A DNA stretch of 64,000 bases from Sphingosinithalassobacter tenebrarum (lineage in GTDB: Bacteria; Pseudomonadota; Alphaproteobacteria; Sphingomonadales; Sphingomonadaceae), in contig NZ_CP049109.1 of assembly GCF_011057975.1 (NCBI RefSeq), positions 1,519,001 through 1,583,000 on the forward strand, written 5' to 3'. The notes under the pieces were generated by a model that did no database searches, had not been told where the DNA came from, and saw only the letters and a list, made by a program, of their open reading frames with translations. Made by a program: the position numbers and the translations under genes. Shown in pieces: positions 23,743 to 60,576 of the stretch; positions within the stretch are counted from its first letter, which is position 1, and each line of letters opens with the position of its first letter.

Positions 23743-23750
23743 ATTATAGG
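23743..23750 (-). promoter_or_regulatory. CCTATAAT motif upstream of the unknown 23710 gene
   Basis: Minus-strand CCTATAAT, 33 bases before the GTG at 23710. No -35 box is evident: the 30 bases further upstream are almost pure G+C. One of twelve occurrences of the motif in this window, see findings. Confidence 0.6.
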
Positions 23751-23789
23751 AGAGTGGCGCGCCGCCGTCCGGCGCCGCGCCTCGGGGGA

Positions 23790-24839
23790 TCAGTGACGCG
23801 TGGCAGCGGCCGGCGCGGCGAAGAGTTCGGAGAAGCCTGCTTCAAGGCCGGCATGCATCGCTGCCTCGGCCGGAAGCGCGGCGGGGTCGATCGCCACTAC
23901 GCGGGTCAGGCGGTTATGCGCGTTGTCGGCGTTCGGCAGGAGCGGCGCGGCCGACTGCTTTTCGGCGGCGCGGCGCGGTTTGGGACGCGCCGGCGCAGCG
24001 GTCTTGTATTCGGCCATAACGGCAAAGCGCGGGTCGGTCGCGGCTAGCTCGGCCATTGCCTTGGTTGCGCGCTTGGTGATCTGGCGCACGCGTTCCTTGG
24101 TCACGCCGGTATCGTTGGCGAGATCGTCGAGCGTTGCGGCTTCGAACACGCGGCGCGCGACGATTTCGCGGTCGCGTTCGAGCTTGGCTTCGAGCTTTTC
24201 CAGCTCCTCGGGGTCGATCCCGTGCGTCGCGAGGCGAAGGCGCGGGCCGTCATTCTGAACGCGTTCGCGGCGCTTGGGACGCGGGCGGCGGCGCAGCTGC
24301 TCCATGCCAACCTTGCGCAGGTGGTCGACATAGGCGTCGACCAGCGCGTCGATGGCGTTGTCGGCCAGGAAATCGGAAGCACCGGCTTCGGTGCGTTCTT
24401 CGGCGAACTCGTCTTCGATCAGCGTTTCGGGCGACATTTCCTCGCCGTCGGCGCTGGTGGCCAGCGCGTTGAGCGAAACGGTGGTGGCCTCGACCTTCTT
24501 CGCCGAGGGGCGCTGGTCGGTCATAAGGCGGAAGCGCAGGCTCTGCAGTTCGCCGCGAAGCTGCCAGTTGATGAAGGTCGTGAACTGGGCCTTGGAAGGG
24601 TCATAGGCCTGAATCGCACGGTGCACTGCGATCGCGCAGCACTGCTCGGCATCCTCCCAATGGGCGGTCAGGCCGTACTGACGGATGAAATGGCGGATGC
24701 GCGGTGCGATCAGCTTGAGGATATCGGCATAGGCGCGGTCCACATTGGCGCGCTGGCGCCGGGTCTGCTCGCCGTCCTTCGGCATGTTTTCCAGAACCGA
24801 AGCGACTGCGGCTTCAAGAGCGATCGTGACTTTGGACAT
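23790..24839 (-). CDS. Divergent sigma-70-family protein inside the flagellar region
   Basis: 349 residues. The region 2-like part (about residues 50-105) reads WEDAEQCCAIAVHRAIQAYD then SKAQFTTFINWQLRGELQS, following the core-binding and promoter-melting helices of sigma factors. A region 4-like helix-turn-helix is at about 240-270: TLDDLANDTGVTKERVRQITKRATKAM. A charged linker without a clear region 3 lies between, and a basic, Ala-rich C-terminal tail of about 75 residues follows. It is neither RpoD, RpoH nor FliA by its motifs. Placed between flagellar-linked genes, it is a candidate to read the TATAAT-type promoters nearby. Role inferred. Confidence 0.7.
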   Translation of the reverse strand: MSKVTIALEAAVASVLENMPKDGEQTRRQRANVDRAYADILKLIAPRIRHFIRQYGLTAHWEDAEQCCAIAVHRAIQAYDPSKAQFTTFINWQLRGELQSLRFRLMTDQRPSAKKVEATTVSLNALATSADGEEMSPETLIEDEFAEERTEAGASDFLADNAIDALVDAYVDHLRKVGMEQLRRRPRPKRRERVQNDGPRLRLATHGIDPEELEKLEAKLERDREIVARRVFEAATLDDLANDTGVTKERVRQITKRATKAMAELAATDPRFAVMAEYKTAAPARPKPRRAAEKQSAAPLLPNADNAHNRLTRVVAIDPAALPAEAAMHAGLEAGFSELFAAPAAATRH

Positions 24840-24932
24840 CCTCTGTCCCCCTGCTTGTTGTCAGCGGCCCCCTGGCTGCCGTTCACAAGCAGGAAATTGC
24901 ACCGGCGCTCCTAAAAGAATCTTAACCGATCC

Positions 24933-24952
24933 TATATGTAGTCCTACATATA
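24933..24952. promoter_or_regulatory. Perfect palindrome upstream of the sigma-like gene
   Basis: TATATGTAG-TC-CTACATATA, 9-base arms, 94 to 113 bases before the sigma-like start and 11 bases past the chemoreceptor stop. It has no T tract, so an operator for the sigma-like gene is as likely as a terminator. Confidence 0.5.
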
Positions 24953-24962
24953 AGTAATCGCC

Positions 24963-26306
24963 TCAGGCCGCACGCAGTTGCGCGAGGAAGGCCTGCACCG
25001 CCTGCGAAAGCGTATCCGCCTGGCCGGCAAGGTGCGAAGCGGAGCCGGACACCTCGCGCGCCGCCCCGACATTGGTTTCGGAGGAATGGCTGACGCGAAC
25101 GATATTCTCGGAAACCTCGTGAGCGGCCTGCGCGGTCTGCTGAACGTTGCGACTGATATCGGCAGTGGCGGCGTTTTGCTGATCCACTGCATTGGCGATG
25201 GTCGCGGCGATTTCGGCCACTTCGTTAACAGTTCCCGAAATCGATTCGATGGCGGCCACAGCCTCGCGCGTCGATTGCTGCAGTTCGCGGACATGGTTCT
25301 CGATTTCGCCAGTAGCCGCCGCGGTTTTGTCGGCGAGATATTTCACTTCGACCGCGACGACGTCGAATGCCTTTCCGGCCTCGCCCGCCCGCGCGGCCTC
25401 GATCGAGGCGTTGAGCGCGAGCATGTTGGTCTTGCCCGCGATCTGGCCGATCAGCGTGACGATCGCGCCGATCCGCTCGGCGCCCTCGGACAGCGCGCGA
25501 ACGATCCTGTCGGTTTCCCGAGCATTCGCAGCGGCGCGTTTGGAAGTGGCCGAGGAATTGGTCACCTGCTCGCGGATCATGTTGATCGAAGCCGAAAGCT
25601 GCTCGGCCGAAGCCGCCGCGGTCTGTAGTCCGGCGCTGGCCTGTTCTGCCGCCGCCGCCACGGTTCCGGCGCGCGTATTGGAATCTGCCGTATTGTCCGA
25701 AACGGTGCGCGCGGATGCTTCGAGCTGGCTCGCGGCCGAAGCGATCTGCCCGGTGACGACGCCGACCTTGGCTTCGAACGCGCTGGCGAGTGCTTCCAGC
25801 TTCCGTCCATATTCGAGTTCATTTTCCTCGAGATAGACCGAGGTCGCCAGTTCCATGTCGATCAGCGCGGCCTGGTTGAGCGCCGCGATCAGTCGCGTAC
25901 ATTTGCGCGAATTGCCGCCGAAACGGCGCGTGCAGCGTTCGCCGACACGCTCGAACATCTCGGCGAGAATGAAGGAATAGCCCCCGATATACCAGCGCGG
26001 GTCCAGCCCGATGCGGCTGTGCATGCGGCCGATCCGGCGCACCGATTCGACATAGGCAGCATCGAATCTGCCCGAAAAGAGCTGGAGCCAGTGCGTTTCC
26101 TGTGCCTTTGCCGCGCGCCGGCTGGCTTCCGCGCTGTCGAACATCGCCTGCAGGCTGGGCCATTCGGCGACATTGGCATAGAATTTCTGTAGCAGCCCAG
26201 GAAGCTCTTCGCGGACCATCGGCAGTGCTTCTGCCAGGATGGCGCGGCGATCTTCGCCAAGTCCGACAAACCGAAGCCGGTCCGCGATTTCGGATTCAAT
26301 CGACAT
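24963..26306 (-). CDS. Globin-coupled methyl-accepting chemotaxis protein (HemAT-like)
   Basis: Soluble aerotaxis-type receptor of 447 residues. Residues 1-175 are a globin-coupled sensor: [12 protein letters not shown], then [20 protein letters not shown], where His96 is the expected proximal heme ligand. The rest is a signalling coiled coil with the conserved hairpin tip [34 protein letters not shown]. No transmembrane segment. It should bind oxygen and signal through CheA/CheW to the flagellar motor. ATG 26306 was chosen; it follows a CCTATAAT motif by 47 bases, so the receptor appears to be switched on with the flagellum. Confidence 0.92.
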
Positions 26307-26353
26307 GCACTGTAACTCCAGACCAGGAACACGGTCATTCAAACCTAAATCAA

Positions 26354-26361
26354 ATTATAGG
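26354..26361 (-). promoter_or_regulatory. CCTATAAT motif upstream of the globin-coupled receptor
   Basis: Minus-strand CCTATAAT followed by an AT-rich stretch and the ATG at 26306. Further upstream is TACGGACCCG (26382-26391), which partly recurs as the palindrome at 45211-45224. Confidence 0.6.
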
Positions 26362-26418
26362 ATGATATACGGAGTTGCGTGCGGGTCCGTAGCTGTACGG
26401 AGATGGTTTACGCGGCGT

Positions 26419-27438
26419 TCATGCCGTGAAGCGGTCGGGCTGGACGCGCTGGGCGATATAGCCGAGCAACCACTGGCGATGCGCCTGTACCGCGCCGCCG
26501 GCATCGGCGATCCGCGCCTGCGCCGCGGCCGAGCCAACCTGAGCGGTCAGCAGCGTGCGCGCACGATCGCTTCCGATCGCATTGCCCAGGAATTTGCGTG
26601 CATCGCCCAGGCCCAGATGATGTGAGAGATAGGCTGCCTTGGCGACCGTTTCGGAATCGAGCCGAACGCGAAAGCCGTCCGACTCAAGCCGGTCGAGATT
26701 GATGCGCGCGAAATCCGCGACGGTGCGGATCGAGGCCTCGGGATCATAGCGAAGCTGCAACAGCTCGGCGCGCGCCTCGGGCCGCACGCGGCCGCTGGCG
26801 TCCAGCCAGCCGCGCTGCGCGGCGACATCGTTGAGCCAGTTCCCCTTGGTCTGCGCCATGTCCTGCCAGGTTCCGCTGAGGAACTGGCCGAGCCCGGCGG
26901 CACTCGAACGCGGATTGCGCGAAAGTGGATTCCAGCTGCCGTCCGCGTGGCGGGCGGATTCGGCGTCGACGATCGCGGCGATGGCAGGGGCGGGAACGCC
27001 GGTGGCCGCAGAGGCCGCCGAGATGGCACCGGCATAACGCTGGTTCGGCCCCAGATCGAGCGTCGCATCGCTCTGCGGCGCGATCGCGCGTGCCGTGTCG
27101 ATCGTGGCGGTGCCGAGCTCGCCCACGCGATTCGGCGTGGGTGCGACTGCGCCGCCGGCGGCATCATCATGCTCGCAGCAACAGCAATGCTGCCGGCCGG
27201 GAACGGCGGCCGCCCCTGTCGTCGCTGTGCCGCCGCCCATCAGCTGCATCAGCGTTTCGACGGGAAAGCCGCTGCCGCCACTGCCCAGTCCATTGGGATC
27301 GCTGTTCCTGCCCTTGCCTTCGGTATCGCCCAGCGCGGCGCGCCACAGCCGGTTCGACATTTCCGACTGAGCGGTACGAAAGATGATCTCCGCCCGGCGC
27401 GCGGGCGGCAGCGAAGCAAGCGTTTCGGGACCGATCAT
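26419..27438 (-). CDS. Flagellar-region muramidase (transglycosylase-like)
   Basis: 339 residues. The C-terminal part (about 125-335) has a lysozyme-like lytic transglycosylase pattern: IAAIVDAESARH with the candidate catalytic Glu, NPRSSAAGLGQFLSGTWQDMA, and a run of helices. In the operon fliI-fliJ-this gene it takes the place of FlgJ, cutting peptidoglycan so that the rod can pass. The N-terminal 120 residues are low-complexity, with the curious cluster HCCCCEHDD at residues 84-92. No classical signal peptide, which fits export by the flagellar secretion system. Start overlaps the fliJ stop by ATGA. Confidence 0.75.
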   Translation of the reverse strand: MIGPETLASLPPARRAEIIFRTAQSEMSNRLWRAALGDTEGKGRNSDPNGLGSGGSGFPVETLMQLMGGGTATTGAAAVPGRQHCCCCEHDDAAGGAVAPTPNRVGELGTATIDTARAIAPQSDATLDLGPNQRYAGAISAASAATGVPAPAIAAIVDAESARHADGSWNPLSRNPRSSAAGLGQFLSGTWQDMAQTKGNWLNDVAAQRGWLDASGRVRPEARAELLQLRYDPEASIRTVADFARINLDRLESDGFRVRLDSETVAKAAYLSHHLGLGDARKFLGNAIGSDRARTLLTAQVGSAAAQARIADAGGAVQAHRQWLLGYIAQRVQPDRFTA

Positions 27439-27872
27439 TGCATCCCCCTCCGTTCGCGGCCGCGTGCGGCCAGGAACCGGGCAGTGCCGAAATCATCGGC
27501 CTGCGCCTGTTCGACGGCGGCATGTTCGCGGTCGATTTCCTCGCGGCGCCGGTTGACCGCTTCCTCGATGGCACGCATCGTGCCGTAACTTTCCGCCGCC
27601 CGGACACGCAGCGCGGTCAAACGGTCGCCCGCTTCCTGGGCATTGCGCGCCAGCCGCGCCCGTTCGGCACGCGCGCGCGCCGCCCAGGCATCGGTCGGCA
27701 TCCAGATTTCGGTGGCGGCCGCGGCGGCCGCGCGTTCGCGCCGTTCCGATTCAAGATGAGCGCGCTGGGCATCGCTCAGCCCGTCGACGCGCTCGATCTC
27801 CACGGTGATTGAAACGCGCAACGCATCGAGTTCGCGCTGCTGGATGCGCAATGCGGTGTTGAGAGCCTTCAT
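27435..27872 (-). CDS. fliJ: FliJ-like flagellar export chaperone
   Basis: 145 residues, almost entirely a charged helical coiled coil ([63 protein letters not shown]). FliJ is recognised by size, coiled-coil composition and position directly after fliI rather than by residue motifs; it would bind the FliI ATPase ring and FlhA. Start and stop both overlap neighbours by 4 bases. Confidence 0.75.
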
Positions 27873-29212
27873 TCCACTGCCTCCTCGACCGGAGCGGGCG
27901 CGACGACGGCACCCAGCTGCGCGAAGGATTCGATCGAATTGCCGCGATCGCCCTTGCCCTGATTGAGCATCGCCTCGATCCGCGGCGCGAGATCGACGGC
28001 GCGATCGACTTCGGGATTGGACCCGCGCTTGTACGCGCCCAGCCGCACCATTTCCTCCATATCGGCATAGGTGGACAACAGGTTGCGCGCGGCGATACGC
28101 GCGTCGTTCTGATCCGCGTCGAGGCAGTGGGGCAGCGTGCGCGACACCGATTTGAGCAAGTCGATCGCCGGATAGCGACCGCGTTCGGCAATCGCGCGGC
28201 GCATCACGACATGGCCGTCGAGGATACCGCGCACCGCGTCGGCGACGGGCTCGTTATGATCGTCGCCATCGACCAGTACCGTGAACAGTCCGGTGATGCT
28301 GCCCTGACCCGGCAGGCCGGGGCCTGCGCGTTCGAGCAGGCGCGGCAGTTCGGCGAAGACTGTCGGCGGATAGCCCTTGGTCGCGGGCGGCTCGCCGCTG
28401 GCGAGGCCGATCTCGCGCTGCGCCATCGCGAAGCGCGTCACCGAATCCATCAGGCACAGCACATTGAGCCCCTGGTCGCGGAAATGTTCGGCGACCGCCA
28501 GCGTGGTCCATGCCGCCTGGCGGCGCATCAGCGCGGGCTCGTCCGAAGTCGCGACAACGACGACGCTGCGCGCCATGCCTTCCTCGCCGAGATCGTCCTC
28601 GACGAATTCCTGCACTTCACGGCCACGTTCGCCGATCAGTCCGATCACCGCGACATCGCAGCGGGTCCAGCGGGCGAGCATCGAAAGCAAAACGGACTTG
28701 CCCACGCCCGAACCGGCGAACAGGCCCAGGCGCTGGCCCAGGCAAAGCGGCGCGAACATGTCGAGCGCGCGCACGCCGGTTTCGATGCGGCCGCCGACAC
28801 GGGCACGGGCGGCGGCGGGCGGGGGCGGGGCCTTGATCGGGTGCGGATCGCCGCCGAGCGGAAGGTTGCCCTTGCCGTCGATCGGGCGGCCCAGGCCGTC
28901 GATCATCCTGCCGAGCCAGCCGCTCGAAGGGCGCAGGCTGAGCTGACCCGCGGTGAGATCGGCGCGCGCGCCGAGCCCCACGCCCTGCGGATCGGCGAAG
29001 GGCATGCACAGCGCCAGATCCCGGTCGAGCGCCGTCACTTCGGTTTCGACGCTGCCGTCATTGCTGGCGATCGCGACGCGGCTTCCGATCTGTGTCGCGC
29101 CGGCCAGCCCTTCGACTTCGATCAGCGCGCCGCGCACGGCGACGACGCGGCCGAACCGATGGTCGGGCGTCTGGGCGCGGATCGCACGGGCTGCGCTGGC
29201 GAGAGTCTGCAT
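27869..29212 (-). CDS. fliI: Flagellar export ATPase FliI
   Basis: 447 residues, the usual FliI length. Walker [18 protein letters not shown] near residue 170, then [14 protein letters not shown], the Walker B region [33 protein letters not shown] and [19 protein letters not shown] are all diagnostic. It energises export of flagellar subunits with FliH and FliJ. Eleven bases after the flbT stop and coupled to fliJ. All catalytic motifs look intact. Confidence 0.96.
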
Positions 29213-29223
29213 CGGACGTGCCT

Positions 29224-29637
29224 TCAGGCCGCCTTGATGGCGTCGCCGGTTTCGGAGCTGTCCGAGCCGGTCTGTTCGATCGCGATCAGTTCGCGCGCCG
29301 AAGCCAGTGCGCGATAATAATCATTGCGCGCCAGGTGATTGGCGAAGCGGACACAGGCGGCCTGCGCGGCGGGCTGCTGCATCTGCTTCAGCACCAGCTG
29401 CAGATCGGACAGGATCCGGTCGTTATGCGCGTCGCGCTGTTCCAGATCGACATAGGCCATCATGCACGTGAAATAGAGGCTGCGCGCGGGCGTGGTGGCG
29501 TCCTCGGGCTGCATCACTTCGCTGCCGCGCAGAATCGATACACGGTTTTCGATCAGCAGCTTGGTGCGACCGATGGCGCGCACAACGGCGCCGTTGATGA
29601 TTGCCTTTTCCCCGTCCCGCAGCGTTATCCGAAGCAT
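29224..29637 (-). CDS. flbT: Flagellin regulator FlbT
   Basis: 137 residues starting [20 protein letters not shown], with [21 protein letters not shown] and [18 protein letters not shown], the FlbT core. In Caulobacter FlbT binds the 5' leader of flagellin mRNA and promotes its decay until the hook is complete. The usual partner FlaF is not in this window. It is the first gene of the flbT-fliI-fliJ-muramidase operon and is preceded 31 bases upstream by CCTATAAT. Confidence 0.93.
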
Positions 29638-29668
29638 GGGCCGTCCTTTTCCAACTGGGTTCGGGATA

Positions 29669-29676
29669 ATTATAGG
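29669..29676 (-). promoter_or_regulatory. CCTATAAT motif of the flbT operon
   Basis: Minus-strand CCTATAAT 31 bases before the flbT ATG. A GGCAAATTTTGCC inverted repeat lies 29 bases further upstream. Confidence 0.65.
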
Positions 29677-29705
29677 AAAGCGTATCCGCAGAGGGGGCGG
29701 CAACC

Positions 29706-29718
29706 GGCAAATTTTGCC
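29706..29718. promoter_or_regulatory. FlbD-like (ftr-type) site GGCAAATTTTGCC
   Basis: 13-base inverted repeat, arms GGCAAA and TTTGCC around one base, in the flbT/flgE divergent gap. The 18 bases CCGGCAAATTTTGCCTAG differ from the fliL/flgF gap copy at only three positions. Resemblance to Caulobacter ftr elements is from memory of their GGCA...TGCC form; binding is inferred. Confidence 0.55.
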
Positions 29719-29833
29719 TAGATCATCGGGACGCCCAGTATTTCCCCTTATAAAATCGGATGAATCGACCGAATTGGCCGTTTTGAGCATTCGCCAGAAA
29801 ATTTCGCAATATGCCGCTTTCGCATGGCAACAT

Positions 29834-29841
29834 CCTATAAT
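29834..29841 (+). promoter_or_regulatory. CCTATAAT motif of the flgE operon
   Basis: Plus-strand CCTATAAT 45 bases before the flgE start, followed by the ribosome site GGGGAG. No TTGACA-like box at the expected spacing. Confidence 0.65.
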
Positions 29842-29886
29842 GTGCGGGAAGGGCTCGTGTGAGCCGTCATCCGGGGAGAAGCAGAG

Positions 29887-31188: not shown

Positions 31189-31202
31189 TCACCTTGCCGT
31201 TA

Positions 31203-31229
31203 CCGGGCCGGATCGCTGATCCGGCCCGG
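31203..31229 (+). other. Strong hairpin between flgE and flgK
   Basis: CCGGGCCGGATC-GCT-GATCCGGCCCGG, a perfect 12-base stem with a 3-base loop and no T tract. It may slow exonucleases or attenuate read-through, setting the hook to junction-protein ratio. Confidence 0.6.
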
Positions 31230-31258
31230 ACCGGCGATCGGGCGGGGATCGGAATATC

Positions 31259-33355: not shown

Positions 33356-33369
33356 TCGGGGATGATGAA

Positions 33370-34275: not shown

Positions 34276-34317
34276 CGGATCGGGGCCGCGTTGCCAGCGG
34301 CTCCGGCAACGAAAAAA

Positions 34318-34352: not shown

Positions 34353-34370
34353 CGTGTCCGCAATCTCCGA

Positions 34371-36440: not shown

Positions 36441-36451
36441 ACTATTATAGG
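36441..36451. promoter_or_regulatory. Bidirectional CTATTATAGG motif
   Basis: Minus strand reads CCTATAATAG toward the small membrane protein; plus strand reads ACTATTAT toward the 36494 gene. One of three divergent gaps with the palindromic core CTATTATAG. Confidence 0.6.
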
Positions 36452-39762: not shown

Positions 39763-39773
39763 CCTATTATAGG
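39763..39773. promoter_or_regulatory. Bidirectional CCTATTATAGG motif between fliL and flgF
   Basis: Perfectly palindromic except at the centre: minus strand CCTATAAT for fliL, plus strand CCTATTAT for flgF. Confidence 0.65.
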
Positions 39774-39783: not shown

Positions 39784-39796
39784 GGCAAAAACTGCC
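39784..39796. promoter_or_regulatory. FlbD-like (ftr-type) site GGCAAAAACTGCC
   Basis: Lies 10 bases upstream of the fliL-direction TATAAT motif and between the flgF-direction motif and the flgF start. Flanks extend the match with 29706-29718 to CCGGCAAA-N3-TGCCTAG. Confidence 0.55.
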
Positions 39797-44014: not shown

Positions 44015-44022
44015 TCTATAAT
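44015..44022 (+). promoter_or_regulatory. TCTATAAT motif upstream of the 44045 gene
   Basis: Followed 22 bases later by the TTG start, with AGGAG between. A half site GGCAAAT lies just upstream (44005-44011). Confidence 0.6.
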
Positions 44023-44044: not shown

Positions 44045-44446
44045 TTGTTCCCGCGAATTCGAGAGATCACCGATGCGTTCGGCGGCCGCCTGCGGCTCAG
44101 CGTCGAGGAACATCCGTCCGGTGCGCTTGTCGTGATCGAGCGGCCCGACGCTGCGGATCGCGCGCGCGTGTTGCTCGACGGCTATGGCTGCGACGTGCTT
44201 GCCGGTTATGTGATGTCGGCGCGGCTGGCGGTTCCGCACGGCCTTCCCAACGAACATGTCGACGGCAATTTCGGCGCGTCGTTCCGTCTCGATCTGGAGC
44301 CGTGCGCCGCGATCTGCATTGCCGAAGCAAGCGGTGGCGATGTCGAAATTCCTTCGCCCTTCTGGGACCGGCTCTATGCCGAACTCTGCCTCGTATCGGC
44401 GCATGCGCGCGAACTGGCGCGGCGGGCGGAAGCGCGGGTTCATTGA
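44045..44446 (+). CDS. Unknown protein downstream of flagellin (1)
   Basis: 133 residues from TTG 44045 with AGGAG six bases upstream. Soluble, alpha/beta pattern, MFPRIREITDAFGGRLRLSVEEHPSGALVVIERPD, then a middle part that could pack as a small beta sheet (VLAGYVMSARLAVPHGLP) and a helical C-terminus (FWDRLYAELCLVSAHARELARRAE). No family recognised. Its own flagellar-type promoter and position between flagellin and flgD make a role in flagellin assembly or regulation likely, but this is inference. Confidence 0.65.
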   Translation: MFPRIREITDAFGGRLRLSVEEHPSGALVVIERPDAADRARVLLDGYGCDVLAGYVMSARLAVPHGLPNEHVDGNFGASFRLDLEPCAAICIAEASGGDVEIPSPFWDRLYAELCLVSAHARELARRAEARVH

Positions 44447-45190: not shown

Positions 45191-45198
45191 CCTATAAT
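45191..45198 (+). promoter_or_regulatory. CCTATAAT motif downstream of flgD
   Basis: Plus strand CCTATAATAG points into the 3' end of flgD; minus strand CTATTATAGG points at the candidate small RNA. Followed by the palindrome ATACGGGTCCGTAT (45211-45224). Confidence 0.4.
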
Positions 45199-47880: not shown

Positions 47881-47920
47881 GCAGCACTCTCATTGCGTGG
47901 CCGCCTGGAGGCCACCTTTC

Positions 47921-47928
47921 ATTATAGA
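47921..47928 (-). promoter_or_regulatory. TCTATAAT motif of the fliK-flgD unit
   Basis: Minus-strand TCTATAAT 40 bases before fliK, in the short gap after flhA. Confidence 0.6.
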
Positions 47929-47951
47929 GGGGTCGCCGCGCGAACGGTCGC

Positions 47952-50033: not shown

Positions 50034-50034
50034 G

Positions 50035-50253
50035 TCAGGCTACTCCGAAAACGATCAGGCAGGGCGATCCCGCCAGCACGCCGCGCGATGCGGCCGAATT
50101 GGTCAATCGCAGCGAAGCATCGCGGCGATCGCGTTTGCCGGTGGCTTCCCACCCGGCGGGCTGCCCGCGTCCGCCCCGCAGCACCCAGCGCACCGGCACC
50201 GCGGCGTCACAGTCGTTGGCGGGATGGGGGAGGGCGCGGGCCATGTCGGTCAT
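50035..50253 (-). CDS. Small coupled gene between flbD and flhA
   Basis: 72 residues (MTDMARALPHPANDCDAAVPVRWVLRGGRGQ). Its ATG overlaps the flbD stop (ATGA) and its stop ends one base before the flhA GTG, so it is translationally coupled to both. Basic, Gly/Arg-rich, ending in a hydrophobic strand (GSPCLIVFGVA). No family recognised. The tight coupling is the main evidence that it is expressed. Confidence 0.6.
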   Translation of the reverse strand: MTDMARALPHPANDCDAAVPVRWVLRGGRGQPAGWEATGKRDRRDASLRLTNSAASRGVLAGSPCLIVFGVA

Positions 50254-51584
50254 GCCGCCGGCGACACGGGAATGCCCGCTTCGACAAATGCCTTCAGTTT
50301 GTTGCGCATCGTGCGCACCGAAATGCCCAGGATGCTCGACGCGCTGGTGCGGTTGCCGTGGCAGCGCTCGAGCGTCTGGAGGATCAGCTCGCGCTCGACT
50401 TCCTCGACGGTGCGCCCGACCAGGCTTTCGACATGCAATCGCTCGCCGCTCTCGGCTTCGGCGCTGACGAGGCGGGTGCCGTCGCTCAGCACGAAGTCGC
50501 CCGGTTCGATCTGGGCACCGCGCGAAAGCAGCACGGCGCGATGCACCGCATCTTCCAGCTCGCGGATATTGCCCGGCCAGTCATAGCGGCGCAGCAGCGC
50601 CATCGCGGTGTCGCAGATCGGCTTGACCGCCATGCCGTCCGAAACCGCCAGCCGTTCGGCGAAATGGTTGGCCAGCATCGCGATGTCGTCGCCGCGTTCG
50701 CGCAGTGGCGGCACTTCGATGCGGACCAGACCCAGCCGGGCAAGCAAATCCGCACGGAAGCCGCCTTCGGCGACGCGCGCGTCGAGATCGACGCTGGTCG
50801 AAGCGATCAGCCGCGCCTGAAACGGCACAGGGTCGGTGCTCCCGACGCGCTGGAACCGCTGTTCCTGCAGCACCGCGAGCAGCTTCGCCTGCGTCGCCGG
50901 CGTCAAAGCGCCGATCTCACGCAGCAGTACCGTGCCGCTCTGGGCCTTTTCCAGGCGCCCGATACGGCGGGCGATGGCGCCGGGAAAGGCGCCTTCCTCA
51001 TGCCCGAACAATTCGGATTCCAGAACGTCGGCGGCCACGCCCGCGCATTCGACGACGAGCATCGGATTGGGTCGGCCGGACGCGACATGGATCGTCCGCG
51101 ACATCATTTCCTTGCCCGATCCGCGCTCGCCGGTGATCAGCACCGGCGCGCTGGAAGGCGCGACCGCGCGGGCGAGTTCGTTGGCGCGTTCGAGCGCGGG
51201 ATGTTCGGCCAGCGCTTCGCTCGGGCGCCGCTCGATGACCGACGCGATGGCGGCGGCGATCAGCTCGCGCTGCGGCGGCAGCGGCACATAATCGCGCGCG
51301 CCCGCCCGGATGGCCGCGACTGCGGCCTCCGCCGGCGCATCGATACCACATGCCAGCACCGGTACGGTGAACCGCTCGCTGCGCAGGTTGGTCAGGAAAT
51401 AGGGCACGTCGAGCAGCACGTCGATCATCACCAGGTCGGCGCCGCTTTCGCGCAGCATCGCCAGTGCGTCGTCGCAGCTGTCTGCCATTGCGACTTCGGC
51501 GCCGGCGTCGCGCGCCAGTTCCGCCGCGCGGCGGAATTCGCTTCCCGGAGCGCCGGCAAGCAGCATTCGGATAGGCATTCCCAT
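50250..51584 (-). CDS. flbD: FlbD orthologue with degenerate AAA+ motifs
   Basis: 444 residues. Receiver-like domain (1-120), AAA+ domain (125-370) and C-terminal Fis-type helix-turn-helix (NRTSASSILGISVRTMRNKLK). Local wording such as PVLACGID, IRAGARDYVPLPPQ and GNRTSAS matches Caulobacter FlbD. Walker A GERGSGKE (152-159) is intact, but the sigma-54 contact loop is GAFPGA (198-203) instead of GAFTGA, Walker B is GTVLLRE with Arg222 for the essential Asp, and sensor I is ASTS instead of ATSN. It should bind DNA, but ATP-driven opening of sigma-54 promoters is doubtful. Lies 2 bases after fliN. Confidence 0.92.
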   Translation of the reverse strand: MGMPIRMLLAGAPGSEFRRAAELARDAGAEVAMADSCDDALAMLRESGADLVMIDVLLDVPYFLTNLRSERFTVPVLACGIDAPAEAAVAAIRAGARDYVPLPPQRELIAAAIASVIERRPSEALAEHPALERANELARAVAPSSAPVLITGERGSGKEMMSRTIHVASGRPNPMLVVECAGVAADVLESELFGHEEGAFPGAIARRIGRLEKAQSGTVLLREIGALTPATQAKLLAVLQEQRFQRVGSTDPVPFQARLIASTSVDLDARVAEGGFRADLLARLGLVRIEVPPLRERGDDIAMLANHFAERLAVSDGMAVKPICDTAMALLRRYDWPGNIRELEDAVHRAVLLSRGAQIEPGDFVLSDGTRLVSAEAESGERLHVESLVGRTVEEVERELILQTLERCHGNRTSASSILGISVRTMRNKLKAFVEAGIPVSPAA

Positions 51585-51586
51585 GA

Positions 51587-51952
51587 TCAGATTTCCTGCC
51601 GCACGACTTCGGTTAGGGTGACGCCCAGCGCGCCGTCGATCAGCACGATCTCGCCGCGCGCGATCAGCCGGTCGTTGACGAAGATATCGACCGGTTCGCC
51701 GACGCGACGATCGAGTTCGAGGACATGCCCGGCACGCAGCTCGAGCAGGTCGCCCACCGGCATCCGCGTGCGACCGAGCACGGCCTGCACCTTCACCGGC
51801 ACGTCGAATACGGCTTCCAGTCCTTCGGGGCCGGTGTCGCCGCTAGCTACAGGCTGCGGCTGGGGTTCGAAATCCTCCAGCGGCGGCGGCGCCTGATCGG
51901 CGGCGGGCTCGGTCGGAATGATGTCCTGCGGGTCCACGCTATTCTCCATCAT
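51587..51952 (-). CDS. fliN: Flagellar motor switch protein FliN
   Basis: About 121 residues. Pro/Glu-rich N-terminus, then the SpoA domain FDVPVKVQAVLGRTRMPVGDLLELRAGHVLELDRRVGEPVDIFVNDRLIARGEIVLID. C-ring component with FliM. ATG 51952 overlaps the fliF stop; 51964 is an alternative. Confidence 0.94.
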   Translation of the reverse strand: MMENSVDPQDIIPTEPAADQAPPPLEDFEPQPQPVASGDTGPEGLEAVFDVPVKVQAVLGRTRMPVGDLLELRAGHVLELDRRVGEPVDIFVNDRLIARGEIVLIDGALGVTLTEVVRQEI

Positions 51953-53556: not shown

Positions 53557-53608
53557 TTCCCGCCTCGTGGCTTGCCGGATTTGCGGGCGTTCTGCCCCTC
53601 ACACAGGA

Positions 53609-53616
53609 ATTATAGG
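53609..53616 (-). promoter_or_regulatory. CCTATAAT motif of the fliF operon
   Basis: Minus strand, 52 bases before the fliF TTG. Two FlbD-like sites lie directly upstream. Confidence 0.65.
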
Positions 53617-53627
53617 ATGATCGAGGC

Positions 53628-53659
53628 GGCAAGCTTTGCCGGGGTGGGAAATTTTTGCC
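53628..53659. promoter_or_regulatory. Two FlbD-like sites upstream of fliF
   Basis: GGCAAGCTTTGCC at 53628-53640 (perfect GGCAA / TTGCC arms) and GGAAATTTTTGCC at 53647-53659, 19 bases apart and immediately upstream of the CCTATAAT. Confidence 0.55.
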
Positions 53660-53773
53660 GGGGGGGCAGGCGCCTGCCGCGCGTGCGTCACGGTCTGACG
53701 AAGCAGGATTGCAGCACGCCGCGATCATCGCAGAAAGTCGTGCGGGTTCGTTTGGGCGCGCGGGGAGCTGGAA

Positions 53774-55156: not shown

Positions 55157-55258
55157 CTATCGGTTATCGGAGAAAGGTCGAAGACACTTTCTTCGAGGGA
55201 CTCCCAACGGCGGAGCAGATGCGTGGGATCGGAGCTCGGGTTTCCGAAGCACGGTTGA

Positions 55259-55966
55259 TCAAAAGCGCTCGGCGCCCTGTTCCTCAGCGATGATATCCAC
55301 CGCCGGTGCCCGCACCGTCGCCACCGGCAACAGCGTCTCCAGCTCGCTCAGGATCTGCGCGCGCCGCTCCGCCGCGTCGAGCGTCAGGCCGCCCTGGTCC
55401 CACAGGATTTCGGCGTCGCCCATCGCGATCTGATGATCGGCGATGATGGTCACGTTCAGACGGCGGCGGTCGGCGGCCTGCCGCGCGGCAAGCCGGGTTT
55501 CCATGTCCTCGGCCAGATCGGGGTGGACGCGCACCTGAATCTCGGTCCCGCGTGCCACCTGGCGCAGCGTGCGGCCGATGGCGTCGTCGACTGCCTGGCC
55601 CGGTGCGGCCTCCAGCGTGCGCGCGGCGAGAAGTTCGGCGGCGGCGAGCGCGACTTGCGTCGCATCGCCGGTCAGCGCGTCCTGCGCATCCGCATAGCGG
55701 CCGTCGAGTGCCTCGATCCCCGCCTGCATCGCATCGACCGCGCTCAGCAGCGCGGTTTCGCGTTCGGTCCGGGCATGCGCCATGCCCGCTTCGAAACCTT
55801 CGTTGCGCGCCTGCATCTCGCGCGCTTCGGCTTCGCTCTTGAGCAGTTCGAGTTCGGTACGGACGGTCGCCAGCTCGAGCATCAGATCGGACGACGAGGC
55901 GCCGTCATTTTCCGGCCCGTGCGTGAAGACACGGTCGAACGGGAAGGGCTGGACATTCATCTTCAT
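55259..55966 (-). CDS. fliH: Flagellar export regulator FliH
   Basis: 235 residues. Acidic N-terminus, long coiled coil (LATVRTELELLKSEAEAREMQARNEGFEAG) and the conserved C-terminal domain (AAGQ-like APGQAVDDAIGRTLRQVARGTEIQVRVHPDLAEDM, DAEILWDQGGLTLDA). It holds FliI at the base. Ten bases after fliG. Confidence 0.88.
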   Translation of the reverse strand: MKMNVQPFPFDRVFTHGPENDGASSSDLMLELATVRTELELLKSEAEAREMQARNEGFEAGMAHARTERETALLSAVDAMQAGIEALDGRYADAQDALTGDATQVALAAAELLAARTLEAAPGQAVDDAIGRTLRQVARGTEIQVRVHPDLAEDMETRLAARQAADRRRLNVTIIADHQIAMGDAEILWDQGGLTLDAAERRAQILSELETLLPVATVRAPAVDIIAEEQGAERF

Positions 55967-55976
55967 GCCGCCCTCC

Positions 55977-57011
55977 CTACAGGATCATCGCATCGTCGCT
56001 CTTGGGATCGACGAGCAGGATTTCGCCGCGATCGGCGAGGTTCTTGGCAAGGCGGACGAGCGAGGACTGTGCCTCTTCGCAATCGCGCGCGCGGACCGGG
56101 CCCATGCCGGCCATGTCTTCCTTCATCAGCTTCGCCGCGCGTTCGGTCATCGCGCCGAAGAACAGGTTCTTCAGTTCCTCCGGCGCGCCCTTCAGCGCCA
56201 GCGCCATTTCGCGCTTGTCGGCATTCTTGACGATCGTCGCGATCGCGGCGGGCAGCAGGTTCGACAGATCCTCGAACGTGAACATCAGCGCGCGGATGCG
56301 TTCGGCGCTGTCGGGCGCCTTGTCGTCGAGCGCCTTGAGCATCGCTTCCTCGGTCGCGCGGTCGAGCGCGTTGAACATCTCGGCCATCGCTTCGTGCGGG
56401 TCGCGCTTGCTGGTGCGGGAGAGGTTGGTCATGAATTCGGTCTTCAGCGTCTGTTCGACCTGCTGGATGACGTCCTTCTGCACCGTTTCCATCCGCAGCA
56501 TGCGCATGATCACGTCGGTGGCGAATTCGCGCGGCAGCTCGCCCATCACGCGTGCGGCGTGATCGGGCCGGATCTTGGAAAGGATGACGGCGACGGTCTG
56601 CGGATATTCGTTGCGCAGCGCGCCGGCGAGGATCGTCTCGGACACGTTGGACAGCTTGTCCCACATCGTCCGGCCCGAAGGACCGCGCAGATCCTCCATG
56701 ATTTCCTTCACCTTGTCGGGCGGGAGCATGCCGGCGAGCAGGCGCTCGGCGCTTTCATAGCTGCCGTGGAAGGAGGCCATGCTCGAAACCTCGCCCGAAA
56801 ACTGGACGAGCAGATGTTCGACGACATGGCTCGGCACGCGGCCGAGCGAGGCGATCGCCGAGGAAAGCTCCTTGATCTCGTCGACCGAAAGCTGTTCCCA
56901 GATCGGCCCGCCATGCTCCTTGCCCAGCGCCAGCATCAGCGCGGCGGCGCGTTGCGTGCCACTGTACCGCTTCAGTTCGGGCAGGTCGGCGACCGGTGCC
57001 ATCATGTTCAT
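55977..57011 (-). CDS. fliG: Flagellar motor switch protein FliG
   Basis: 344 residues. YSGTQRAAALMLALGKEHGGPIWEQLSVDEIKELSSAIASLGRV begins the ARM-N domain; the C-terminal torque helix contains FFGAMTERAAKLMKEDMAGMGPVRARDCEEAQSSLVRLAKNLADRGEI with the charged residues that face MotA. Complete length. Starts 63 bases downstream of the divergent promoter core shared with the FlaEY-like gene. Confidence 0.96.
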   Translation of the reverse strand: MNMMAPVADLPELKRYSGTQRAAALMLALGKEHGGPIWEQLSVDEIKELSSAIASLGRVPSHVVEHLLVQFSGEVSSMASFHGSYESAERLLAGMLPPDKVKEIMEDLRGPSGRTMWDKLSNVSETILAGALRNEYPQTVAVILSKIRPDHAARVMGELPREFATDVIMRMLRMETVQKDVIQQVEQTLKTEFMTNLSRTSKRDPHEAMAEMFNALDRATEEAMLKALDDKAPDSAERIRALMFTFEDLSNLLPAAIATIVKNADKREMALALKGAPEELKNLFFGAMTERAAKLMKEDMAGMGPVRARDCEEAQSSLVRLAKNLADRGEILLVDPKSDDAMIL

Positions 57012-57071
57012 CCGTTTCGGGCTCCCTGTAAAAAGAATCCGTACCCACGCGCATGTGAGAGCGAACTCCCT

Positions 57072-57082
57072 TCTATTATAGG
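57072..57082. promoter_or_regulatory. Bidirectional TCTATTATAGG motif between fliG and the FlaEY-like gene
   Basis: Minus strand CCTATAATAG for fliG, plus strand TCTATTAT for the 57110 gene. Third palindromic divergent core. A weak site GGTAAATTTTTCG lies at 57115-57127. Confidence 0.6.
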
Positions 57083-57109
57083 ATGGAGGACTGGAGGTTC
57101 GGTCGAGCG

Positions 57110-59917
57110 ATGACGGTAAATTTTTCGAACTCGATGGTGGGGCTGAGCCTGCTGACGGGAAGCAATGTCTTCTCCAGCGGGATCACCGATATCACGTTCG
57201 AAAGCCGTGCCGTGCGCAAGGCCAAGGCGCAGTTCACGATGGAGCCGACCACCACGCCGCCGTGGAAGGAAGAGCCCGACAGCAGCCCGTTGTCGACTCA
57301 GGCCTCGATGATCAAGGCGATGAAGACGATCATCGACAAGGCCGGGACGGGCGTCGATTTCCTGCCCGAGGACGTCCAGACCACCTTCACCACCTACAAG
57401 GCGCTCGATCGCCTGCGCGTGCTCGCCGAAGTCGCCGCCGACAAGACTACGTCGGACGCGCAGCGCAAGGCGCTGCAAAAAAGCTTCGCTGCCGGGATGG
57501 GGGAGCTCAAGGGCTTTCTCACCAGCGCACCGTCCGACAAGGTCAGCCTTTCCTATTTCCAGCCCGCGCGCAATGTGAAGTCGATCGGCATTCCCGCGGC
57601 GGATCAATATACGCTCAAGGGCCCGGCGCTGGTCGACCGGCGCACCGATGCGGTGCCGGGGCTGACCGGGCAGGAACAGTTTTCGATCACGCTGACCAAG
57701 CCGGGCGCGAGCGACACCGTGACCGTCGATCTTTCGACCGGACCGCAGCCGCCCTCGCTCGACGACATCGTCGTGGCGCTCAACGGTGCGATCAAGTCCG
57801 TGCCGCAATATAATGGCGACGGCAGCGTCAAGCTGGACGGGAACGGCGACCCGATCCCGCGCTGGCTGGCGACGTTCGAAGCCGAGAAGGGCGACGATGG
57901 CTGGGGTTTGACGCTCAAGACGCCGAGCGGCATCGAGCGGGTGACGATGGACCAGATCGGCGCGAAGGATTCGCTGATCGTCGCAACCGGCCAGACGCCG
58001 CTCGACGCGCCCAGCGCAACTCAGGTCTTCCGCCTCGATGATCCCGCAGGCGGCAACAGCCGCGTGACGCTCGCCACTGTGTCGGCGCTCGACCGTCAGG
58101 AAACCGAACGCAACAAGCTGCTCGGCAAGACCACCACCGAAACCAACATCGTCTATGACCAGTTCGGCAATCCCGAGCTGGGCAGCGACGGCAAGGTGAA
58201 GCTCGAAAAGATCGAGAAGCCCGACGTTCAGGCAGATACCGATGCCGCCGCCGTAACAACCGACCGGTTCGGCAACAGCTATATCGTCGGCACCACTGCG
58301 GGCGATCTGGGATCGAACCGTTCCGATGGCGACGACAATCTGTTCCTCACCAAGCTGGACGGCGAAGGCAATGTCATGTGGCAGCGCAGCCTCGGCTCGG
58401 GTGGCGCATCGCAGGGCGCGTCGGTGCATGTCGACGATGACGGCAGCGTCACTGTCGCGGGCACCGTGAACGGCGGATTCGACGACATGACGACCGACGG
58501 CGATATGCTGGTCGCCCGGTTCGACGAAAATGGCGACGAACAGTTCGCCACGGTGGTCCGCGCGACCGGCGCCGACACCGCAAAGGCGCTGGCCGTCGCG
58601 GCGGACGGCAGCATCTATGTCGGCGGCCGCGCGGCGAGCGGCGGCGGCGACGCCTTCATCGCCAGGATCGGCGCCAACGGCGTCATCTCCGAACGCCGCA
58701 CGATCAATATCGGCGGCAGCGAAAGCGTGAATGCGCTGACGATCGACAAGGACGGCAATCTGCTCGCCGCGATCAACAAGAGCGGCAATGCCCAGATCTG
58801 GAAGATCGACGGCGCTTCGCTGTCCACCGATCTGGGCCAGATCGATCTCGGCCGCGCCGACGCGCGCGTCCTTTCGGTCGCCGATGACGGAACGATCGCG
58901 GTCGGCGGCACTACCGAAGCGGTGATGACCGGCACGCAGACCAATGGCTTCGCCGGCGCGCGCGACGGTTTCGTCGCGACGATCGACGCGAACCTGACGG
59001 CATCGCGCATCACCTATATCGGTACCGCCGAGGACGATCAGGTCGACAGCATCGCCTTCCTCAACGGCGAGCTGTACGCTGGCGGGCGAACCAAGGGCGA
59101 TCTCGGCGCCACCCGGCGCGGACCGACCGACGGCTTCGTCACGCGCATCGACATGGCCAGCGGCGCGATCCAGTCGACCAGCCAGTTCGGCCAGTCGCTG
59201 CTGCGTACCGAACCGGTGCGGATTTCCGCCGATCCGGGCGGCGCCGCGACGGGGATCAAGGCGCTGGGCTTCGGCCGCGGCACGATCAACCCGGAAAGTT
59301 CCGAGCTGCTGACCTCGCAGACCGCGATCCGCGCCGGCGACACCTTCTCCATCCGGCTCAATGGCGGTGCGACGCGCAAGATCACGATCGACGCCGATGA
59401 AACGATGAAATCGCTGACCGAAAAGCTCAGCAAGATCACCGGGTCCAAGGCCACGGTCACGACTTCGCGGTCCAATGGCGAACGCACGCTGCGCATCACC
59501 GCCAAGGAAGGCAATGCAGTCGATCTGATCGCCGGCGCCGAAGGACGCGACGTGCTCGAAAAGCTGGGTATCGACCCGCAACGCATCGAGACGCCGGAGA
59601 AAAAGGCGGACAACGCGCCCAAGGTGTCGCCCGGCGGCACCTATGGCCTGATGCTCACCGACGCGCTCAACCTCACCACTGCCGAGGATGCCAAGATCGC
59701 GCTCAAGAAGATGAAGGACGCCGTGTCGATGAGCCAGACGGCCTATCGCTCGCTGTTCTGGGACGATGCCAAGGCGACGCTGGTCGATGGCGAAAAGAAC
59801 AGCGCCTACGGCAAATATTCCACCGCGCGCGAAAACGCGCAGCTCAAAAACTACCAGGCGGCGCTCGACCGGCTTTCGGGCGGCGGCGGCGCTTCCACCA
59901 GTCTGATAGGGTTCTGA
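57110..59917 (+). CDS. FlaEY-like flagellar regulatory protein with beta-propeller
   Basis: 935 residues from ATG 57110. N-terminal 400: unclassified, alpha-helical and beta parts with axial-protein flavour (TVNFSNSMVGLSLLTGSNVFSSG). Middle (about 400-700): SBBP-type propeller blades, repeated pattern DRFGNSYIVGTTAGDLG, DDGSVTVAGTVNGGF, ADGSIYVGGRAASGGGDAFIARIG, NGELYAGGRTKGDLG. C-terminal 230: FliD/flagellin-like segment (TFSIRLNGGATRKITIDADETMKSLTEKLSKITGSKATV) and helical end. The size and neighbours match Caulobacter FlaEY, which modulates flagellin expression; this match is from memory. Its stop overlaps flgB. Confidence 0.55.
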   Translation: MTVNFSNSMVGLSLLTGSNVFSSGITDITFESRAVRKAKAQFTMEPTTTPPWKEEPDSSPLSTQASMIKAMKTIIDKAGTGVDFLPEDVQTTFTTYKALDRLRVLAEVAADKTTSDAQRKALQKSFAAGMGELKGFLTSAPSDKVSLSYFQPARNVKSIGIPAADQYTLKGPALVDRRTDAVPGLTGQEQFSITLTKPGASDTVTVDLSTGPQPPSLDDIVVALNGAIKSVPQYNGDGSVKLDGNGDPIPRWLATFEAEKGDDGWGLTLKTPSGIERVTMDQIGAKDSLIVATGQTPLDAPSATQVFRLDDPAGGNSRVTLATVSALDRQETERNKLLGKTTTETNIVYDQFGNPELGSDGKVKLEKIEKPDVQADTDAAAVTTDRFGNSYIVGTTAGDLGSNRSDGDDNLFLTKLDGEGNVMWQRSLGSGGASQGASVHVDDDGSVTVAGTVNGGFDDMTTDGDMLVARFDENGDEQFATVVRATGADTAKALAVAADGSIYVGGRAASGGGDAFIARIGANGVISERRTINIGGSESVNALTIDKDGNLLAAINKSGNAQIWKIDGASLSTDLGQIDLGRADARVLSVADDGTIAVGGTTEAVMTGTQTNGFAGARDGFVATIDANLTASRITYIGTAEDDQVDSIAFLNGELYAGGRTKGDLGATRRGPTDGFVTRIDMASGAIQSTSQFGQSLLRTEPVRISADPGGAATGIKALGFGRGTINPESSELLTSQTAIRAGDTFSIRLNGGATRKITIDADETMKSLTEKLSKITGSKATVTTSRSNGERTLRITAKEGNAVDLIAGAEGRDVLEKLGIDPQRIETPEKKADNAPKVSPGGTYGLMLTDALNLTTAEDAKIALKKMKDAVSMSQTAYRSLFWDDAKATLVDGEKNSAYGKYSTARENAQLKNYQAALDRLSGGGGASTSLIGF

Positions 59918-60339
59918 TGGTCATGGGAAACACCCCCGCGCTCCTCACCGGTATCAAGAACAATATGCACTATCTGGCCGAGCGCCAGCGCGTGGTGGCG
60001 GAGAATATCGCGCATGGCGAAACGCCGGGATACAAGTCGCGCGATGTCGCGCGCCCCAGCTTCGGAGCGCTGGTGGACGGTGGCCCGGGCACGGTGGCGA
60101 CGCCGCAGGTGCAGCTGACGCAGGGCATGCGCAGCCTGGGCGCGGTGCTGCCCGCGGGCGCCGGCAATGTGATCCTCGACACCGATATCGTCGAAACCAA
60201 GCCCGACGGAAACAATGTGACCGTCGAGGACCAGCTGATGAAAATGGGCGAGATCCAGGCCGATTTCACGGCGATGGCCAGCCTCTATCGCAAGCAGCTC
60301 GGCCTGTTGCGCAGCGCGATCGGCAAGAGCGGCGGATAA
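59917..60339 (+). CDS. flgB: Flagellar rod protein FlgB
   Basis: 140 residues. IKNNMHYLAERQRVVAENIAHGETPGYKSRDVARPSF and NNVTVEDQLMKMGEIQADFTAMASLYRKQLGLLRSAI are FlgB signatures. First rod component above the MS ring. Normally followed by flgC and fliE; here a TonB receptor gene follows instead. Confidence 0.94.
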   Translation: MVMGNTPALLTGIKNNMHYLAERQRVVAENIAHGETPGYKSRDVARPSFGALVDGGPGTVATPQVQLTQGMRSLGAVLPAGAGNVILDTDIVETKPDGNNVTVEDQLMKMGEIQADFTAMASLYRKQLGLLRSAIGKSGG

Positions 60340-60540
60340 GGTCCGCAGCCCGAACCGCGATTTCCCCCTTGTCTGGACGATGGGCGCTGCGACCTCGGCG
60401 TCTGTCCGGCGCGGCGGACTCCAGAAAACTCCCCGAGGAAACCCGATATCTGCCGGGTGGCCCGCGCCGGGATTCCTTTGCCCGGAAACATGGTGAATCG
60501 CAAAAAATCTACGCGATTCCGCCAGTCTCGGCACCCGCCG

Positions 60541-60576
60541 TCTATAATGTCCGGTAGCACCGACAGCTGCCTGTCG
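60541..60576 (+). promoter_or_regulatory. TCTATAAT motif and start-site hairpin upstream of the TonB receptor
   Basis: TCTATAAT at 60541-60548 followed by CGACAG-CTGC-CTGTCG at 60561-60576. The 312-base gap 60340-60651 otherwise shows only a weak repeat AATCGC...GCGATT (60492-60515 region) and no gene. Confidence 0.45.

Follow-up and report, generated by a model that had tools for sequence, protein, structure and literature searches.

The genome of the sphingomonad Sphingosinithalassobacter tenebrarum contains, within a stretch of 64,000 nucleotides (contig NZ_CP049109.1, positions 1,519,001 to 1,583,000; hereafter the window), a flagellar gene region in which a short DNA element, YCTATAAT (hereafter the box), recurs upstream of transcription units. 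This box is very probably the -10 element of a sigma-54-independent and motility-specific class of promoters, a class that would be characteristic of sphingomonads possessing a flagellar system of the Caulobacter type (FlbD/FlbT). Judging from the sequence data, we slightly favor the view that these are -10-only promoters that are probably read by SigX, a divergent member of the sigma-70 family encoded in the same cluster, with FlbD serving as an ordinary DNA-binding regulator.

Distribution and conservation of the box

The window contains 12 matches to YCTATAAT, compared to a mean of 0.20 in 100 shuffled versions (largest count 2; none of the 100 reached 12). All of the coordinates and strands listed for them in the initial annotation correspond to exact matches, and the palindromic core CTATTATAG that it had noted in three divergent gaps is indeed present at positions 36442, 39764, and 57073; a fourth copy, at 45192, is located outside of any divergent gap. 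According to our own gene calls, the proposed distance of 22 to 63 bases between the box and the start of the first gene applies to 10 of 11 sites, provided that fliF starts at the upstream TTG codon (53556); it fails for the gene of the TonB-dependent receptor, which begins at a distance of 103 bases. Downstream of the box at 45191, no gene was called on the strand of the box, and no counterpart was seen in the two nearest relatives (L125, L130).

Among the genes of the flagellar region that are preceded by a gap of 40 bp or more, the upstream regions of 11 of 21 contain the exact box, compared to none of 257 control upstream regions drawn from 20 random stretches of 20 kb in this genome (Fisher p 2e-14). 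Its occurrence before almost every flagellar transcription unit, as initially claimed, is therefore too strong a statement, since about half of these regions carry it; fliC, flgK, sigX, and some of the divergent partners are without an exact box in the window. The control regions likewise exclude that the box is equally frequent before non-motility genes, and none of the 13 upstream regions in the non-flagellar part of the window carries it. TATAAT by itself was found in just one of the 257 control regions; in the flagellar region, 11 of the 11 upstream regions with TATAAT also possess the preceding YC. A search of Rfam at its gathering cut-offs gave no match in the window.

Across the entire genome (one contig of 3,859,475 bp), we counted 74 exact matches to YCTATAAT and 29 to the reversed pattern. 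Forty of the 62 sites beyond the window lie within called genes, many of them as Tyr-Asn codons; 12 of the other 22 have a same-strand gene start within 400 bp, which in one case overlaps the box. Since codons inflate such raw counts, those obtained for 196 genomes of the order are no test of a regulon, and we relied on upstream regions and orthologs instead. The in-gene sites would speak for an origin of the box by chance or through codon usage, an explanation that merits practically no credence: it is refuted by the shuffled sequences, by the comparison of upstream regions, and by the conservation of the box in 38 of 41 orthologous regions.

For the latter test, relatives were fetched through their FlbD protein or found in a sample of the order, and the orthologous 140-bp upstream regions were scanned for the box with at most one mismatch; orthologs matching only after residue 25 or with incomplete upstream sequences were skipped, which left none for fliK. 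The 38 positive regions among the 41 orthologs of leader genes are those of flgE (9/9), fliG (10/10), fliF (9/10), flbT (7/9), and fliL (3/3, all of them exact). By the same scan, we scored 1 of 38 regions preceding comparison genes (flhA 0/10, flgK 0/9, sigX 0/9, and a putative flgB 1/10) and 8 of the 257 control regions; exact boxes in these controls numbered zero in the gaps and one in the fixed 140-bp scan, which includes coding sequence. The gene for the 172-residue protein, flgF, g935, g605, fliC, and the gene for a globin-containing methyl-accepting chemotaxis protein (MCP) were not counted in this tally. Among them, the divergent partners sharing a palindromic core have kept the box in 3 of 3 (flgF, one mismatch) and 7 of 7 orthologs (g935, at most one mismatch), and that of the 172-residue gene is exact in both orthologs tested (G201 and G196).

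None of the 41 best matches in the leader orthologs departs from the C in front of TATAAT or from the A as its second base, and the most variable positions are the fourth base (A in 30 of 41) and then the first (T in 35 of 41); leader orthologs mostly read YCTATNAT or YCCATAAT. The AT-rich relative G053 (GC content 0.48) deviates from the box by two mismatches upstream of fliF, fliG, and flgD, by three upstream of flgE, and by one upstream of flhA and flgK. The 935-residue protein g935 (57110-59917), whose gene is divergent from fliG and shares the putative palindromic -10 element with it, has a weak match to beta-propeller repeats and is conserved in the clusters of most relatives.

The 11 sites outside the window that precede same-strand genes are associated with genes for a FliN-like protein, MotA, three MCPs, a GGDEF-EAL protein, and a BLUF photoreceptor, along with those for a winged-helix protein, an 80-residue protein, an alginate-export-type porin (divergent from one of the MCP genes), and a carbonic anhydrase. 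Six of these 11 members are motility, chemotaxis, or cyclic di-GMP genes; by our gene calls, two members are distant from their box (the GGDEF-EAL gene by 188 bp and one MCP gene by 330 bp). The suggestion that the box defines a motility regulon that is specific to the lineage and extends beyond the flagellar cluster is supported. The non-flagellar members named in the initial annotation fared unequally. All of them have exact boxes in S. tenebrarum, and the 172-residue gene is backed by its orthologs; the TonB-dependent receptor has no convincing ortholog in the clusters of the relatives (only a 24% match in G198) and the globin-MCP box is kept in one of four orthologs, so that the membership of these two rests mainly on this genome.

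A second, different flagellar system is encoded in the S. tenebrarum genome (G000; C1:420001-460000; L241, L242), and it is devoid of boxes. It possesses its own FliA (C1:432299) and three strict sigma-54 promoters, located before a rod-protein gene (flgB-like), a MotA-family gene, and an SLT-like gene. Hence, the two flagellar systems of one cell differ in their promoter type.

Promoter anatomy and the decay of FlbD

The box contains a perfect -10 hexamer of the sigma-70 type, TATAAT, preceded by YC, a feature overlooked in the initial annotation, as were the altered FlbD and the divergent sigma factor encoded in this cluster. We aligned 22 sites, 11 from within and 11 from outside the window, a set that omits the box at 45191 and, outside the window, the 40 in-gene sites, 10 sites without a same-strand gene within 400 bp, and the site overlapping a start codon. 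T or G is favored directly 5' of the box, and G or T directly 3' of it. The eighth base after the box (+15 from its first base) is an A in 13 and a purine in 18 of the 22 sites, a bias that would match the start site expected downstream of a -10 element and that echoes the start-site phasing predicted in the initial annotation. The reported lack of a matching -35 element was borne out in three ways: every column between -42 and -2 has at most 0.45 bits, the mean best match to TTGACA amounts to 2.05 of 6 positions at spacers of 15-19 compared to 2.67 at other offsets, and a free search for a 6-bp motif in the -35 zone (16.3) performed no better than shuffled sequences (8.8 to 18.3 in 12 runs). 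Further upstream, about 39 bp from the box, an AT-rich block extends from -45 to -33 and is phased across the 22 promoters (mean AT content 0.55, compared to 0.41 at other offsets).

In agreement with the initial annotation, we found neither strict sigma-54 promoters nor sigma-28 promoters of the TAAA/GCCGATAA type before these genes. The strict sigma-54 element TGGYRYR-N4-TTGCW does not occur in the window between 22.8 and 60.7 kb or in L125-L133; the larger stretches of G202 and G190 contain one strict match each, more than 18 kb away from the nearest window ortholog. The sigma-28 consensus consists of a TAAA -35 element combined with a GCCGATAA -10 element. No match to TAAA-N14-16-GCCG was present in any cluster, and a TAAA-like sequence (three of four bases) stands at sigma-28 spacing in only 2 of the 22 sites. 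It is barely conceivable, therefore, that the boxes are read by FliA, the sigma-28 factor of the second flagellar system. The box, written as xCCTATAA, does share six of eight positions with the sigma-28 -10 element, and FliA is not only present in G000 but exceeded the cut-off in 6 of the 12 genomes searched and fell just below it in a seventh, G199. However, boxes are conserved in G190, G197, and G198, and FliA cannot be their reader there, because these relatives have no FliA near the cut-off and only FlhA of the present type; moreover, no box surrounds the system that encodes FliA.

The box might alternatively represent the operator of a regulator, its palindromic cores forming a dyad, rather than a -10 element. 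The perfect palindromes TCCTATAATAGGA of fliL/flgF would suit such a role, but we consider it very unlikely, since most box sites are not palindromic, and the boxes lie close to start codons with purines phased downstream. Palindromes occur mainly in divergent gaps (the copy at 45192 being the exception), as expected of -10 elements common to both strands (PMC12825309, in its accessible part).

A different palindrome, GGCAAAAWTTGCC, is present in several promoters of structural genes; relative to the box, it lies near -42, near -24, or at both positions, varying by 1-2 nt. The distal imperfect copy in the fliF promoter, GGCAAAAATTTCC, is the same in G201 and G196, and GGCAA-T-rich-TCC forms are found in G197-G200 and G202-G204. 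Upstream of fliF, the palindrome GGCAAAATTTGCC or a close form is present both in the window lineage and in G053, a relative with an intact FlbD; G053 has the palindrome but no box at this location. We infer that the palindrome is a FlbD (ftr) site.

FlbD itself is degenerate in the window, where both the GAFTGA motif and the Walker B motif are altered (Table 1). Among the best 120 of 7977 FlbD homologs, for which any organism name given is that of a sphingomonad or reads only 'Pseudomonadota', the Thr of GAFTGA is lost in 118 and the Walker-B Asp in all 120, and the Walker-A Lys is kept in all 120. The 29 FlbD proteins inspected from other families of the order are all intact, as is that of G053, in which a sigma-54 promoter precedes flgK. 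In G190, the entire AAA+ domain of FlbD is gone, and the receiver-like part and the Fis-type helix-turn-helix (HTH), which is conserved, remain. RpoN is encoded in the window genome (C1:111911) and in 11 of 12 relatives; it was not found in G200. Read at the level of the protein sequence, these data show that FlbD has lost residues needed to drive sigma-54. According to the accessible part of PMC10274813, FlbD of Caulobacter has GAFTGA, and NtrC proteins without this motif regulate sigma-70 promoters; Caulobacter FlbD is described in PMC3930126, as far as its text is accessible, as an activator at ftr sites that also represses fliF.

SigX as a candidate reader of the box

SigX has homology to both region 2 and region 4 of the sigma-70 family, and no named subfamily fits. 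In Pfam searches, Sigma70_r4 was matched with 34.2 bits, above its cut-off, and Sigma70_r2 with 20.2 bits, below the cut-off of 24; the match to TIGR02937 (residues 18-245, 38.6 bits) also remains below its cut-off (42.9). RpoS chains are matched over residues 68-266, and in the profile search region 4 carries this match, region 2 alone being weak. The score against the FliA family TIGR02479 is 27.5 bits with a cut-off of 189.6, and the pairwise comparison with the FliA encoded in this genome was not significant (E 0.64). Homologs of SigX are annotated in general terms only.

The gene order flbT-fliI-(g145)-g339-(MCP)-sigX is found in 9 of 9 clusters examined. SigX is present in 10 of 10 examined relatives with a degenerate FlbD (all nine genomes fetched through FlbD, and G190) as well as in G000, and it is absent in G053. 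It is also absent in 13 of 13 sampled genomes of the same genus, 12 of which carry a FliF of another type. The idea that these 13 absences separate SigX from the box was dropped, since the best FlbD matches in these genomes reach only E 1e-56 to 1e-65. In 10 cluster orthologs of SigX, 68 of the 95 positions of region 2 are invariant, compared to 11 of the 54 of region 4, whose HTH is altered in 7 of the 10; many other SigX homologs from Sphingomonas keep region 4. A conserved -10-reading region together with an eroding -35-reading region would fit promoters that have a -10 but no -35 element.

In the mechanism that we propose, RNA polymerase containing SigX would recognize the box through the conserved region 2 and, because region 4 is eroding, may need little or no -35 contact. 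FlbD, now sigma-54-independent, would assist at structural-gene promoters from about -42 and/or -24, and the palindromic core in divergent gaps could serve both strands. The shared class of boxes seemingly came about because the sigma-54 switch decayed and another sigma factor, perhaps the one encoded in the cluster, took over. That SigX reads the box has, in our estimate, about an even chance. We put somewhat less than even odds on a more far-reaching proposal, in which sigma-54 gave way to SigX throughout the flagellar hierarchy and the chemotaxis regulon of an alphaproteobacterial lineage. SigX would then be a sigma-70-family protein dedicated to flagella that still recognizes the -10 element of -10-only YCTATAAT promoters but is losing its -35 domain, and recruitment to promoters would have passed to a FlbD that is ATPase-dead or AAA+-less.

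Instead of SigX, RpoD could read the boxes as -10 elements. Compensation for the missing -35 would then come from the degenerate FlbD, in the role of a sigma-70 activator, or from an AT-rich element further upstream, and SigX would have its role elsewhere. We regard this as a serious, if rather doubtful, possibility. With a single occurrence in the control upstream regions, TATAAT is not the common -10 element of this genome, and we know of no RpoD feature that corresponds to the C invariably preceding it in the leader orthologs. Furthermore, several members lack the FlbD palindrome, and the co-occurrence with SigX would be left unexplained. In favor of RpoD stand the phased AT-rich block, the action of GAFTGA-less NtrC proteins at sigma-70 promoters (PMC10274813, accessible part), and the hexamer itself, since a perfect TATAAT is also an ideal housekeeping -10 element.

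This last point also counts against promoters read by SigX, as do the following observations. The relatives are not independent (G201 and G196 are close to each other, as are G199, G200, G203, and G204), so that p-values are too small, and G190 was chosen because SigX and the present type of FliF are both present in it. Region 4 is intact in SigX of the window and of its two nearest relatives. Relatives of SigX with 38-48% identity, most of them shorter, are encoded in 11 sampled genomes that lack this flagellar system, and SigX is retained in G138, where neither FlhA nor FliF gave a match. Nor is sigX itself preceded by a box, either in the window or in any of nine orthologs. The box with at most one mismatch is found in none of five fliC, one of four globin-MCP, and none of two g605 orthologs. 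As for FlbD, GGCA-N5-TGCC is not very rare, with 16 occurrences in 400 kb of control sequence compared to 4 in the 37.9-kb flagellar region (one of them in-gene). Most members outside the cluster lack a recognizable FlbD palindrome, and FlbD therefore does not define the whole regulon.

Further observations concern the surroundings of sigX and its relatives. The region upstream of sigX (24840-24940, minus strand) contains partly conserved TTAA/TTTA half sites that are CtrA-like; their spacing varies, and they are not clear in all genomes. The adjoining gene g339 (26419-27438), a neighbor of sigX in all clusters examined, has a weak SLT transglycosylase match and perhaps encodes a FlgJ-like rod enzyme. 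In G138 (L067/L243), g339, sigX, and a fliJ-like frame remain, apparently as remnants of a lost flagellar cluster. A FlbT-like gene directly precedes a short SigX relative in two genomes without a FlhA match (L074, 873-2082; L076, 724-2079), which suggests that FlbT and SigX are partners outside flagella. Exact boxes precede the SigX homolog of G128 and, in G184, a pair formed by a FlbT-like gene and a SigX gene, and none is found in nine other short-form loci; this is too weak to count as autoregulation in the short SigX relatives.

Table 1. Boxes, palindromes, and regulatory genes in the window (ORF, open reading frame)
Feature	Position	Strand	Remarks
CCTATAAT box	23743..23750	-	before the 172-aa gene (23192-23710), directly downstream of sigX
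CCTATAAT box	26354..26361	-	before the protoglobin-MCP gene (24963-26306; Pfam)
CCTATAAT box	29669..29676	-	before flbT-fliI-(g145)-g339
CCTATAAT box	29834..29841	+	before flgE
CCTATAAT box	36444..36451	-	before g76-g605; palindromic core CTATTATAG
CCTATAAT box	39766..39773	-	before fliL-fliM; palindrome TCCTATAATAGGA common with divergent flgF
TCTATAAT box	44015..44022	+	before a 133-aa ORF (44045-44446) downstream of fliC; also in L125, L130
CCTATAAT	45191..45198	+	between g118 and the 3' end of flgD
TCTATAAT box	47921..47928	-	before fliK-flgD; also in L125, L130
CCTATAAT box	53609..53616	-	before fliF-fliN-flbD-flhA
CCTATAAT box	57075..57082	-	before fliG-fliH; core common with divergent g935
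TCTATAAT box	60541..60548	+	before the TonB-dependent receptor gene (60652-63144)
GGCAAATTTTGCC palindrome	29706..29718	.	distal, about -42 from the flbT box; putative FlbD site
GGCAAAAACTGCC palindrome	39784..39796	.	proximal, about -23 from the fliL box; putative FlbD site
GGCAAGCTTTGCC palindrome	53628..53640	.	proximal, about -24 from the fliF box; putative FlbD site
GGCAAAAATTTCC	53647..53659	-	distal imperfect copy in the fliF promoter, about -43
SigX, divergent sigma-70-family protein, 349 aa	23790..24839	-	candidate box reader
FlbD	50250..51566	-	GAFPGA for GAFTGA; Walker B LREI for LDEI
flbT	29224..29637	-	first gene of the series leading towards sigX

Relation to known systems

In the open-licence literature, we found no earlier report of this box, of the decay of FlbD, or of a flagellar sigma factor in sphingomonads; a study on Sphingomonas sp. 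WG assumed a Caulobacter-like activation of sigma-54 promoters by FlbD (PMC8921679, accessible part). According to the accessible part of PMC12826043, Alphaproteobacteria have no known sigma factor that is specific to the flagellum; the extracytoplasmic function (ECF) factors that it describes serve a minor flagellin and the lateral flagella. SigX would be a candidate flagellar sigma factor for which both box and regulon are defined and the genomes form a graded series. This series leads from G053 (intact FlbD and a sigma-54 promoter before flgK) through the clade of the window (degenerate FlbD and boxes) to G190 (AAA+-less FlbD), and the replacement of a sigma-54 circuit can therefore be traced stepwise. 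Our data also have a bearing on annotation, since many of these FlbD proteins are labeled as 'sigma-54-dependent transcriptional regulator'.

With the FlbD/sigma-54 hierarchy of Caulobacter, the system described here shares the gene families (FlbD, FlbT, and the fliF cluster), and the palindrome taken to be an ftr site lies upstream of fliF in the window lineage and in G053 with its intact FlbD. Unlike in Caulobacter, the flagellar region of the window is without a strict sigma-54 promoter, its FlbD lacks GAFTGA and the Walker-B Asp, and its boxes are of another type, found before early as well as middle genes. GAFTGA-less NtrC of Rhodobacter capsulatus and Caulobacter offers a parallel as an NtrC-type activator without sigma-54 contact that works at sigma-70-type promoters (PMC10274813, accessible part). 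In the present case, however, the protein concerned is FlbD, the Walker-B Asp has been lost as well, one lineage is without the whole AAA+ domain, and the degenerate FlbD goes together with a new class of promoters and an uncharacterized sigma factor.

The regulon of FliA/FlgM resembles the one described here in that a single sigma-type box unites scattered flagellar, motor, and chemoreceptor genes; the differences are that SigX falls well short of the FliA cut-off and that even the earliest structural genes (fliF and fliG) have boxes in front of them. In Azospirillum, the ECF factors RpoE6 and RpoE10 provide an example of alternative sigma factors tied to alphaproteobacterial flagellar genes, with RpoE6 affecting FliC2, FliD, FliS, and metabolism, and RpoE10 the lateral flagella (PMC12826043, accessible part). 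Unlike these, SigX would be responsible for an entire regulon of flagellar and chemotaxis genes, and the profile searches that we made do not place it among the ECF factors. Finally, bidirectional promoters with a symmetrical -10 element in Escherichia coli (PMC12825309, accessible part) have in common with the boxes of the window a -10 element shared by both strands in divergent gaps. What distinguishes the sphingomonad boxes from them is that the shared element would be part of a dedicated regulon and that relatives have retained it at both flgF and g935.

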